This document shows positions 38,775-64,000 of a DNA stretch of 64,000 nt, in pieces. The position numbers and the translations under genes are program-made. The stretch comes from Lentimicrobium sp. (GTDB taxonomy: Bacteria > Bacteroidota > Bacteroidia > Bacteroidales > Lentimicrobiaceae). The stretch covers positions 31,209 through 95,208 of the forward strand of contig JAHYJC010000014.1 of assembly GCA_019429275.1 (NCBI GenBank), read 5' to 3'. Each line of letters opens with the position of its first letter. Position 1 is the stretch's first letter. Under the pieces are notes generated by a model. That model was not told the origin of the DNA. It searched no databases and was given only the letters and a program-made list of their open reading frames with translations.

Positions 38775-38830
38775 ATAGTTTAAACAAAAATAAACAACCA
38801 CCTTCAAATATACTTGTAAGTAGTTGTTTG
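38775..38830 (-). terminator. Hairpin terminator after GIY-YIG/tRNA-like tail
   Basis: Minus strand AAACAACTACTT...AAGGTGGTTGTTT stem followed by ATTTTTGTTT. Confidence 0.65.
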
Positions 38831-38921
38831 TCAGTGCGGGAGCAACAGGGTTCGAATTCCGAATAATCGGAACAGGCACTGTGACCCTCCCGACTGGAAG
38901 TCGGGATGCAATGAACCAACT
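38831..38921 (-). other. tRNA-like 3' tail / 5'-truncated tRNA remnant downstream of GIY-YIG ORF
   Basis: Minus strand AGTTGGTTCATTGCATCCCGACTTCCAGTCGGGAGGGTCACAG...TTCGAACCCTGTTGCTCCCGCACTGA: D-loop remnant, anticodon arm CCCGA-CTTCCAG-TCGGG (TCC), 3' T-arm/acceptor strand, with ~22-nt insertion in the T-arm. Confidence 0.7.
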
Positions 38922-39188
38922 TTATTGATGGTTTATCAGTTTTTCAACCAACTTGCGATTTTTCCACCCCCATATCAATTTTTTCCGTACCAAAGCTTGC
39001 AAACATTCTGTGTAAAATTCCTGACAAACCATTTGCCAATCTGTTGCATATGACGTAAACCCTTTATGTTGACAGTTATGTTTAATAATTCTTGCTGCTA
39101 CTGTGTCTTGTGTAGAACCAAAATAATATCGGTCCTGCTTTTCAGAAAATAAAATATAGAGGTATATTGTAAGTTTTTCAGGTTTCAA
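38922..39188 (-). CDS. GIY-YIG nuclease-like ORF, 5' end fused to CRISPR repeat; possibly decayed
   Basis: IYLYILFSEKQDRYYFGSTQDTVAARIIKHN...WGWKNRKLVEKLI; no ATG outside the array, nearest start is TTG inside the terminal repeat; usual REKEIK replaced by RKKLIW. Confidence 0.55.
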   Translation of the reverse strand: MKPEKLTIYLYILFSEKQDRYYFGSTQDTVAARIIKHNCQHKGFTSYATDWQMVCQEFYTECLQALVRKKLIWGWKNRKLVEKLINHQ

Positions 39189-42100
39189 TCCACGCGCCCC
39201 TGCGGAGCGCGACGCATGCGGGATTTTATCTTGATTATATAAAAGTAGTTTCAATCCACGCGCCCCTGCGGAGCGCGACCCCTGACCCGACATTGGTAGG
39301 ACAAGCTACATGGTTTCAATCCACGCGCCCCTGCGGAGCGCGACCAAGTAGGAATAGACAACGTATCCGCATTTGGGGTTTCAATCCACGCGCCCCTGCG
39401 GAGCGCGACCTGATATGCTCCAGCCTGTTGTCGAAGCCCACGCCTGTTTCAATCCACGCGCCCCTGCGGAGCGCGACAGCATTAATCGTGTTAAAAAATC
39501 TGTTATAGAAGTTTCAATCCACGCGCCCCTGCGGAGCGCGACCCAAAAGAAAAAAAACAGCAGATGACAGAAGCGGTTTCAATCCACGCGCCCCTGCGGA
39601 GCGCGACGGCTTTTAAAGATTCAAAAAAGAGATTAATTGAGAGTTTCAATCCACGCGCCCCTGCGGAGCGCGACAACCGGCCATCAAAACGTCCCACTTG
39701 GTAACTGCTGTTTCAATCCACGCGCCCCTGCGGAGCGCGACGGCGACAAAAACACCTTATCATCGTATTCAATCGTTTCAATCCACGCGCCCCTGCGGAG
39801 CGCGACACACATAGTGATTACGACAATTACGTAAATTGGAGTTTCAATCCACGCGCCCCTGCGGAGCGCGACTGAGACATATTACAAAAGTGCAATGCAG
39901 TTTTTTAAGTTTCAATCCACGCGCCCCTGCGGAGCGCGACCTGTTTCCTGAGTTTTTACCAGCCACATTGTTAGGTTTCAATCCACGCGCCCCTGCGGAG
40001 CGCGACTAAATCCCTGGTGGTTATTTTTGCAAAATCCGATGTTTCAATCCACGCGCCCCTGCGGAGCGCGACTTACCAATCGGGTAGTTATTGGAAATTA
40101 ACAGAGTTTCAATCCACGCGCCCCTGCGGAGCGCGACTGGATGGACACCTGATGTAACTCCTGCTTTGTGGTTTCAATCCACGCGCCCCTGCGGAGCGCG
40201 ACGTAGAATGTATTGATTTTGACGCGCATGGAAAAGGTTTCAATCCACGCGCCCCTGCGGAGCGCGACATAATGATATAATCCAACAGGGAGCGTATCAG
40301 AGTTTCAATCCACGCGCCCCTGCGGAGCGCGACCAGGCGCAGACACTTGGACTCAAAAGCATATCAGTTTCAATCCACGCGCCCCTGCGGAGCGCGACCT
40401 GGTGTGGCTGCCGGGGCGTTCTCTGCGAATGCGTTTCAATCCACGCGCCCCTGCGGAGCGCGACTTGATGGCCGGTTTAACTCAGCTGCGAACCGACGTT
40501 TCAATCCACGCGCCCCTGCGGAGCGCGACGAGGGTAGAAAAGAGGAGGCCGACGCAGTAAAAAAGTTTCAATCCACGCGCCCCTGCGGAGCGCGACTTAT
40601 TCCTCCGGGTAGTCCGCCGCTATATGTGTCAGTTTCAATCCACGCGCCCCTGCGGAGCGCGACATTACGATGCCATAGGAGGGTGGAGTTATACCGGTTT
40701 CAATCCACGCGCCCCTGCGGAGCGCGACTTGGATTATATCATTATCGCTGTCAATATTTCCGTTTCAATCCACGCGCCCCTGCGGAGCGCGACTAAATCC
40801 ACTTGTGCTTACTAATGTATTATACCTGTTTCAATCCACGCGCCCCTGCGGAGCGCGACTATTAACCCAAGAATCAACAACCTGATTGATAGTTTCAATC
40901 CACGCGCCCCTGCGGAGCGCGACGCATGGGCATCAATTACAGGGTGGAGTATATCAGTTTCAATCCACGCGCCCCTGCGGAGCGCGACTGCCCAGATATT
41001 TGATCGTAAGTCAGCAAGCGTGTTTCAATCCACGCGCCCCTGCGGAGCGCGACATCAAGTTTTTCCATCTGATCGCAAATAAATGCGTTTCAATCCACGC
41101 GCCCCTGCGGAGCGCGACGTTACCAATCCAGTGATGTCATCGAGCATTTCCTCTGTTTCAATCCACGCGCCCCTGCGGAGCGCGACCATACACGTCCCCT
41201 GCGACACTCACGGATCGAGAGTTTCAATCCACGCGCCCCTGCGGAGCGCGACCCCGCATTATGGCAAGAGATACCGCAACCAGGCGTTTCAATCCACGCG
41301 CCCCTGCGGAGCGCGACAAAATAATTATTTTTTTTTAACACTTAAAAACAGTTTCAATCCACGCGCCCCTGCGGAGCGCGACAAAAACCATGGAGGATGC
41401 TCTTAAAAAGAGAAGGTTTCAATCCACGCGCCCCTGCGGAGCGCGACTTTAAAGAGATCGGCCGCGTTTTTGCCGAATCTAAGTTTCAATCCACGCGCCC
41501 CTGCGGAGCGCGACTTTACAGCCGCATAAGTTACCCAAGCGATGAATGTTTCAATCCACGCGCCCCTGCGGAGCGCGACTCGGCTGAATTAATCAACTCG
41601 ACGTATCTCGACGTTTCAATCCACGCGCCCCTGCGGAGCGCGACACTCCCCCTGTCTGGATTGTCTGGATAAATTTCCGTTTCAATCCACGCGCCCCTGC
41701 GGAGCGCGACATATAACTTTAACGCCATCATCGCCAGTGCAGGGTTTCAATCCACGCGCCCCTGCGGAGCGCGACGACATTGAAGGCAGATTGGAAATTG
41801 TAGAACCTGTTTCAATCCACGCGCCCCTGCGGAGCGCGACCATTAACGCAGATTTTAACGAGATTCCATCTTAGTTTCAATCCACGCGCCCCTGCGGAGC
41901 GCGACAGCAGCCGCCGCAATATTGGCGTGTCGGCTGATGTTTCAATCCACGCGCCCCTGCGGAGCGCGACTACAGATGTATATTTGATGAGGTCATAAAA
42001 CCAGTTTCAATCCACGCGCCCCTGCGGAGCGCGACACAGACGGTACCACCGCCACCGCAGAGGGAACTCAGTTTCAATCCACGCGCCCCTGCGGAGCGCG

Positions 42101-42232
42101 ACCGGAATGGCTGGAGCAGGGGGTTCGCCCATAGGTTTCAATCCACGCGCCCCTGCGGAGCGCGACTCCCGGAGGAGTAACCGTGCCACCAGCACCAGTC
42201 GTTTCAATCCACGCGCCCCTGCGGAGCGCGAC
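39182..42232 (-). CRISPR. Type I-C CRISPR array, 47 repeats / 46 spacers (manual count)
   Basis: 32-bp repeat; minus strand GTCGCGCTCCGCAGGGGCGCGTGGATTGAAAC (plus strand GTTTCAATCCACGCGCCCCTGCGGAGCGCGAC), spacers about 32-36 bp; ATTGAAAC 3' end indicates transcription leftward. Confidence 0.98.
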
Positions 42233-44578: not shown

Positions 44579-44632
44579 CTCCAGCCTTCAGGCTGGAGAA
44601 TGCAGAATATTCTAGATACCGGGCTTTAGCCC
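44579..44632. repeat. REP-like pair CTCCAGCCTTCAGGCTGGAG...GGGCTTTAGCCC
   Basis: Two palindromes separated by AATGCAGAATATTCTAGATACC; the second contains the transposase stop codon. Confidence 0.88.
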
Positions 44633-45060
44633 TTCATCCTCTCAAAACCATATGAACTAATGAAATCATTATACTCTTTCTCCCACGAATTATTTCTATG
44701 GTGCTCCTCCTGATTAGTTATATAGTTTCTCACATTCTGAAGTTGCGATTCGCTGACTGATACAGCAAAATACTCATCTGCCCACTCAAATTTATTTTTA
44801 ACGATTTTGTTTTTATTTATCCAAAACGAAGATTCGCCTTTAATTAGCTGAACTACTTTTGAAATACATTGTTCGGGACCAAGACTGATAATGCAATGCA
44901 AGTGCTCCGTATGCCCGTTTATTGCATCAATATATATTGATTTTAGCCTGGCATTCTGCTTAATATGTTCAATTATATCAAGCTTTGATTCTTTGGTCAG
45001 AAAAGGATGTCGGTTTTTTGTTGCCCAGACACAATGTAGCCAAATTCGAACATGTGACAT
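44626..45060 (-). mobile_element. IS200-like Y1 transposase / REP-associated tyrosine transposase (RAYT) inside the cas operon
   Basis: MSHVRIWLHCVWATKNRHPFL; NGHTEHLHCII (HUH); NVRNYITNQEEHH (catalytic Tyr); flanked by palindromes. Confidence 0.9.
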
Positions 45061-51540: not shown

Positions 51541-51615
51541 GGGAGCATAGCTCAGCTGGTTCAGAGCACCTGCCTTACAAGCAGGGGGTCACAGGTTCGA
51601 ACCCTGTTGCTCCCA
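51541..51615 (+). tRNA. tRNA-Val (anticodon TAC)
   Basis: GGGAGCA...CCTGCCTTACAAGCAGG...CAGGTTCGAACCCTG...TGCTCCCA. Confidence 0.96.
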
Positions 51616-51618
51616 CTC

Positions 51619-51668
51619 TTAAAAACAACCACTTACAATTAATTTTGTAGGTGGTTTTTGTTTTTTTG
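51619..51668 (+). terminator. Terminator after tRNA-Val
   Basis: AACCACTTACAA-TTAATT-TTGTAGGTGGTT hairpin followed by T run. Confidence 0.8.
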
Positions 51669-51929
51669 CATTTTATTTACATTTTTCAATTCTGAACTGA
51701 ATTGCTGATACCGCCTTTTATAACATCAGGTAATCTATAATTCATTCTTAAACAACATTCTTAATTTGTCGTTTCTTTAATTCCGTTAAAAAAAACAACT
51801 TCTTTACTGCAGAGATTTCAAAATCGTAATTTTTCAACAATAAGGTAATTTTTGCAGGCTTCCTCAGCCTATTGCTGTTTTTCTTAGCTTTACAGTCTTA
51901 AACAGAGTTGATCATTTAAACCGGGTTTT

Positions 51930-52424
51930 ATGTTTCCTTACCGCATTGGATTGGGCTTTGATGTTCATAAGCTGGCGCCGGGATTGCCTTTTTTCTTGGG
52001 GGGAGTAAAGATAAATCACCATTCGGGTGCAGTCGGACACTCTGATGCCGACGTTTTGCTCCACGCCATTTGCGATGCTTTGCTGGGGGCAGCCGGATTA
52101 AGAGATATAGGTTATCATTTTCCTGATACAGATGCCAGCCTTAAGGGCATTGACAGTAAGATTCTATTGGATCGTACCGTCAACCTTCTGGAAGAAAAAG
52201 GCTGGAAAACAGGAAATATTGATTGTACCATTGCCCTTCAGGCGCCCAAAATATCGCCATATATTCCTGAAATGCAGGCTTGTATTGAAAAAATAACAAA
52301 ATCAGGCCTCGGCAGTGTTTCGGTTAAAGCGACCACCACCGAAGAGCTGGGTTTTACAGGACGCAAAGAGGGAGTCGCAGCCTGGGCTGTTGCAATTATT
52401 TTTAAAGAAGAAACAAGTATATAG
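51930..52424 (+). CDS. ispF: 2-C-methyl-D-erythritol 2,4-cyclodiphosphate synthase
   Basis: RIGLGFDVHKL, GHSDADVLLHAICDALLGAAGLRDIG, KATTTEELGFTGRKEGVAAWAV. Confidence 0.96.
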   Translation: MFPYRIGLGFDVHKLAPGLPFFLGGVKINHHSGAVGHSDADVLLHAICDALLGAAGLRDIGYHFPDTDASLKGIDSKILLDRTVNLLEEKGWKTGNIDCTIALQAPKISPYIPEMQACIEKITKSGLGSVSVKATTTEELGFTGRKEGVAAWAVAIIFKEETSI

Positions 52425-63876: not shown

Positions 63877-64000
63877 ATCGAGTAGGAGGAAAATAAAACA
63901 GTTTTCCTCCTGTTTTATTTTCCGACCTCTCACACCACCGTACGTACCGTTCGGTATACGGCGGTTTGTTAGAAAAGTGTTAACTGGTATTCTGTTTTCC
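63877..64000 (-). mobile_element. 3' end (domains V-VI) of a group II intron, truncated by window edge
   Basis: Minus strand AACCGCCGTATACCGAACGGTACGTACGGTGGTGTGAGAGG followed by GGAAAATAAAACAG-GAGGAAAA-CTGTTTTATTTTCC hairpin and ...CTACTCGAT end. Confidence 0.75.

Follow-up and report, generated by a model that had tools for sequence, protein, structure and literature searches.

What is a small nuclease gene doing in direct contact with what looks like a piece of a tRNA? On the minus strand of the window, by which we mean the whole 64,000-nucleotide stretch of Lentimicrobium DNA analyzed here, an open reading frame that matches the GIY-YIG nucleases (PF01541, E 3e-7) ends in a stop codon at 38924-38922, and this codon directly abuts a tRNA-like tail. 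The initial annotation placed frame, stop codon and tail correctly, and suggested that they could be a compact homing-type element whose tail, as a 3' RNA structure, mimics a tRNA. We consider that the feature is probably the dead relic of one of a group of minimal, free-standing homing-type elements that are dedicated to tRNA genes.

The tail (38836-38921, minus strand) is a partial tRNA-Val(TAC) that runs from the D-loop to the 3' end and, as had been proposed, lacks the 5' acceptor strand. Of the tRNAs recovered from this genome, tRNA-Val(TAC) matches it best, with 19/19 identical bases (E 1e-6) in the stretch TTCGAACCCTGTTGCTCCC at 38856-38838, and the local alignment between the two scores 38 against a shuffled maximum of 25. 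The intact tRNA-Val(TAC) gene, recognized by both ARAGORN and Rfam, lies 12.6 kb away on the plus strand (51541-51616), where it is followed by an empty site and then by ispF (51930-52424). Roughly 44 bases 3' of the tail (38786-38829, minus strand) are a copy of the trailer and terminator of this same gene, aligning to 51617-51670 with a score of 51 against a shuffled maximum of 33, and this is the terminator that had been noted after the tail. Neither ARAGORN nor Rfam recognizes the tail as a tRNA, and no Rfam family matches it at a useful score. Nor is the tail what is left of a tRNA gene conserved independently of the nuclease.

Two hairpins interrupt the tRNA sequence. The anticodon arm is replaced by TCCCGACT-TCC-AGTCGGGA (38888-38906, minus strand), a perfect 8-bp hairpin with the three-nucleotide loop TCC. 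A reading of TCC as an anticodon, with the Gly-like identity that it would imply, is wrong, and an origin of the tail from tRNA-Gly is ruled out by its best match to tRNA-Val(TAC). The loop reads GGA, GAC or TAT in relatives, among which the stem shows compensatory changes, and the hairpin pattern CCCGACTNNNAGTCGGG occurs only once in the genome. The 22-nucleotide insertion with its own stem that had been described in the T-arm is real (38857-38878, minus strand), and one relative, L076, has the same insert with one pair changed in a compensatory way. The same tail is also found after the tRNA-Val elements of genomes G001, G009 and G007.

The gene in front of the tail (38922-39170, minus strand) is a degenerate nuclease gene of the tRNA-Val type. 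In an alignment with 11 relatives, the ATG start codon has become ACA (39170-39168) and the metal-binding Glu has become Lys, so that the window copy does not retain the full set of catalytic residues. The ATG listed for the open reading frame falls within a CRISPR array of 47 exact repeats (39182-42232, minus strand), which leaves the nuclease without a start codon of its own. The last repeat of this array lies upstream of the nuclease, in the position where relatives carry an intact tRNA and its terminator. With both its start codon and its metal-binding Glu gone, the copy in the window is dead. An origin of the tail from tRNA-Val predicts that the protein should group with tRNA-Val elements, and in the protein tree it does so, alongside L073 and L076 from two other genomes of the genus. 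Elsewhere in the window, an open reading frame inside the cas operon (44626-45060) resembles, by eye only, an IS200/REP-type (Y1) transposase, and Rfam reports a group II intron match at 63877-63966 (44.9 bits).

The relic has many intact kin. The genome harbors ten PF01541 genes, including two long ones of the UvrC and exonuclease types. Of the remaining eight, the seven outside the window lie next to an intact tRNA or the array belonging to it, apart from one (L002), which has tRNA fragments beside it. The family is present in 198/297 Bacteroidota genomes. Among 86 Bacteroidota loci ranked by a profile that was built from tRNA-linked proteins, in 78 an intact tRNA lies no more than 250 bp away in the same orientation, a figure that holds for this subfamily given how the profile was made; 66 of the 86 have one within 100 bp, none has an intact tRNA on the opposite strand within 250 bp, and four of the eight loci without a nearby same-strand tRNA are close to contig ends. 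Control genes from the same genus were not linked to tRNAs (0/10 of the UvrC/exonuclease type and 0/11 small GIY-YIG genes of another subfamily). The arrangement of a nuclease beside an intact tRNA, with a broken half-copy on the far side, is found in hundreds of bacterial genomes. The suspicion that small GIY-YIG genes sit beside tRNA-derived sequence at unrelated loci is thus borne out on a massive scale; a general lack of such sequence beside homologues would have told against it, but homologues do carry it.

Copies at contig ends are numerous (for example G032:C43, G037:C39, G084:C97 and G086:C17), and one 340-bp contig, L265, is essentially a single nuclease unit. Tandem arrays probably break assemblies, and copy numbers are accordingly underestimates. 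Relatives from the same genus also have small GIY-YIG genes of a separate subfamily, marked by the motif KWSRAKKEALI (L041, L042, L044, L045, L047, L050, L059 and L061), which is not tRNA-linked; several of its genes are flanked by other REP-like palindromes, such as GGTGGTCGAGCGGAGCCGAGACC, which suggests another association between a nuclease and a repeat.

The elements come in two mirror forms. On the side of the nuclease that faces away from the intact tRNA, local alignments scoring above all shuffles find part of this tRNA duplicated in 96/105 copies. In the first form the order is tRNA, nuclease and 3' part, and the 3' part in most copies reaches the last bases of the tRNA. In the second, mirror form, which accounts for 20/105 copies, the order is 5' part, nuclease and tRNA, with the 5' part mostly starting at base 1 and often extending to about bases 24-40. 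Nuclease and part-tRNA are often repeated in tandem, as in the arrays at tRNA-Asp in G313 (five copies, period 315 bp), tRNA-Leu in G253 (five copies, 450 bp) and tRNA-Ser in G151 (three copies, 323 bp). The nuclease is the single open reading frame of these 315-450 bp units, and an integrase is absent.

Perfect hairpins are found in 63/89 partial tRNA copies, compared with 2% of matched control windows. In the first form the hairpin is often of the type TCCCGA...TCGGGA and sits in the anticodon arm or T-arm, whereas in the second it is often the 20-nucleotide palindrome CCTGCCTGCCGGCAGGCAGG, located in the D-arm and identical across phyla. Although both types are greatly enriched in the partial copies, they also occur elsewhere in some genomes, and for this reason the hairpins are not treated as a defining part of the element. 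Copies of CCTGCCTGCCGGCAGGCAGG number 1-14 in nine of ten genomes searched, and its carriers include L264, L280, L291, L293, L307, L326, L327 and others. Since it is also present inside other repeats, CCTGCCTGCCGGCAGGCAGG could be a palindrome that moves on its own account or otherwise, with partial-tRNA sites among those it tolerates or prefers.

The nuclease lineages are isotype-specific. On a tree of 143 proteins the tRNA isotype changes 27 times, compared with at least 63 in shuffles, and for 53 of 95 copies the nearest relative from another bacterial family sits at the same isotype, where 9.4 would be expected and the maximum of 2000 shuffles was 21. Protein clades track the isotype in different bacterial families and phyla alike. 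With the Leu/Arg-type proteins as the query, GTDB genomes yielded 80 loci, of which 75 adjoin an intact tRNA, nearly all Leu and a few Arg. These Leu/Arg-type tRNA loci are distributed over Bacteroidota, Balneolota, Ignavibacteriota, Nitrospirota and several Patescibacteria groups. The patescibacterial proteins are scattered over the Leu/Arg-type tree, which suggests transfer between phyla, though with support too low to prove it.

The nuclease is under purifying selection. Each of the motif residues (two Tyr, Arg, His and Glu) is retained by 96-100% of 118 tRNA-linked copies, and close pairs show a much lower dN than dS (for example, 0.074 vs 0.75). Its presence is patchy when species of one genus are compared. 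The junction between tRNA-Val and ispF is empty in G000, G012 and G017 but holds two elements in G001, while in G007 a nuclease and tail remnant remains beside ispF, separated from tRNA-Val by an integrase island. At tRNA-Asp, six genomes of the same genus are occupied and others are either empty or carry a remnant. The tRNA-Val and tRNA-Asp sequences are identical in occupied and empty genomes, which rules out self-protection through an altered tRNA sequence for these two isotypes. The integrase island at tRNA-Val in G007 (L239), which is also seen in G004, carries restriction-like genes; in G007 it is a second defense-type locus beside such a relic, after the CRISPR-cas locus of the window.

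These observations bear on several other ways in which a nuclease gene and a broken tRNA might come to lie together. The nuclease could serve its host. It might guard or regulate the tRNA locus at which it sits, with islands that target tRNA genes as one possible threat, or it might act on the tRNA or on structured DNA, and the half-copies would then be decoys or regulatory leaders. Purifying selection fits such a role, as does the fact that UPF0213 proteins and the structure-specific nuclease SLX1 are its nearest relatives of known structure, and an integrase island is indeed found at tRNA-Val in G004 and G007. However, in G007 the island did enter beside the element, and a guardian is hard to reconcile with patchy presence, decaying copies, tandem amplification and two opposite architectures; we regard it as unlikely. 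The islands might themselves be the source, given that tRNA 3' ends are classic attachment sites and that one occupies tRNA-Val in these two genomes, but leftovers of ordinary integrase islands make a highly improbable explanation for a 315-450 bp repeat unit with one open reading frame and no integrase. Moreover, integration at a 3' end does not leave the 5' half-copies of the mirror class, and the nuclease clades are isotype-specific.

Direct repeats that contain tRNA ends are also what passive tandem duplication at tRNA genes would produce, as with the rtT repeats after the tRNA-Tyr of E. coli, the nuclease gene then being a hitch-hiker. A hitch-hiker would hardly keep a conserved active site or form isotype-specific protein clades that span families and phyla, and units exist in single copy with the half-copy on a defined side, so that we give this reading little credence. 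An RNA-level function, in which partial tRNA and hairpin form an RNA that guides, stabilizes or processes the nuclease transcript, seems slightly less probable again. The abundance of hairpins in the partial copies speaks for it, as do compensatory changes at three pairs among five Val tails, a small sample. Against it, the two mirror forms place the fragment on opposite sides of the gene, 3' in the first and 5' in the second, a clear fragment is missing from some copies, and the hairpin types also occur elsewhere in the genomes. The related notion of a 3' RNA mimic is unsupported because, in the mirror class, the 5' half lies upstream of the nuclease; the tail is a displaced half of the neighboring tRNA gene in which a hairpin usually disrupts the T-arm or the anticodon arm. 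What stands of the compact homing-type element with a mimic tail is that the family behaves like a small homing-type element, whereas the window copy is dead. Two further candidates were rejected: a group I intron with an endonuclease, as the adjacent tRNAs are intact, the units are only 315-450 bp and the window contains no group I match, and a REP/RAYT palindrome system, as the partner gene is a GIY-YIG nuclease and not a Y1 transposase.

The explanation that we favor, a homing-type element dedicated to tRNA genes, requires little more than one GIY-YIG gene of 80-90 codons beside its target tRNA. In genomes free of the element, the nuclease would cut the cognate tRNA gene, and repair from an occupied copy would import the nuclease gene and restore a working tRNA, leaving one tRNA half behind as a displaced copy. 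Recombination between tRNA halves and wholes could then build or delete arrays. Old copies would decay, as in the window, where the upstream side now holds the CRISPR-cas locus. A broader proposal, which we put forward tentatively, is that these are widespread, tiny autonomous mobile elements of about 300-450 bp with an 80-90-residue nuclease, existing as one lineage per isotype, which may invade essential tRNA genes, rebuild them with the half that they bring, and spread between phyla without a known vector. Nothing close was found among the viral contigs, phages and plasmids searched for a carrier. This negative result counts against a homing element, as do the absence of an obvious extra DNA-binding domain and the identity of tRNA-Val and tRNA-Asp between occupied and empty genomes, which does not account for how a host would avoid being cut.

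The nearest precedent is SegB of the T-even phages. SegB of phage T6, a GIY-YIG enzyme, cuts inside tRNA genes and drives tandem amplification of a tRNA segment by recombination (PMC13096335), and its motif RAWTSGAAC corresponds to the tRNA T-loop region on the other strand (PMC13096335). The Seg enzymes (PMC13096335, PMC2988022) thus share with the present family the GIY-YIG fold, the absence of an intron and a location at tRNA genes. They differ in being phage enzymes, whereas the present family is chromosomal in bacteria, with one lineage per isotype, a partial tRNA copy on the far side and two mirror forms. The Seg and I-TevI proteins also carry an additional C-terminal DNA-binding module, whereas the present single-domain proteins have only 80-90 residues, nearly all of them covered by the GIY-YIG profile, with no obvious extra DNA-binding domain. 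The closest solved relatives, UPF0213/YhbQ-like proteins (PDB 1zg2 and 1ywl), are likewise single GIY-YIG domains but have no known linkage to tRNA. The rtT repeats at E. coli tyrT are tandem, follow a tRNA gene and each contain a piece of the tRNA 3' end, as in the present family, but are confined to one locus and lack a nuclease gene. Group I introns with homing endonucleases likewise bring such a nuclease to the anticodon region of tRNA genes, but the tRNAs of the present family are not interrupted and a ribozyme would not fit into the unit. No paper on chromosomal tRNA-linked GIY-YIG genes was found among open-licence full texts, and a text search of the 2006 survey of the superfamily (PMC1564403) found no mention of such elements. 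The nuclease type and intronless homing are already known, but we found no earlier description of the architecture or of the isotype lineages.

What emerges looks like a hitherto undescribed family of minute selfish elements that specialize on individual tRNA genes. If so, most Bacteroidota and some distant phyla would harbor tiny selfish genes for single, often essential, tRNA genes, and tRNA-targeted homing would extend from phages to bacterial chromosomes. The family would account for many annotations of the type "GIY-YIG nuclease family protein" and for many stray tRNA fragments, and it would provide a source of naturally specific single-domain nucleases with a testable target rule, be it sequence or DNA structure.
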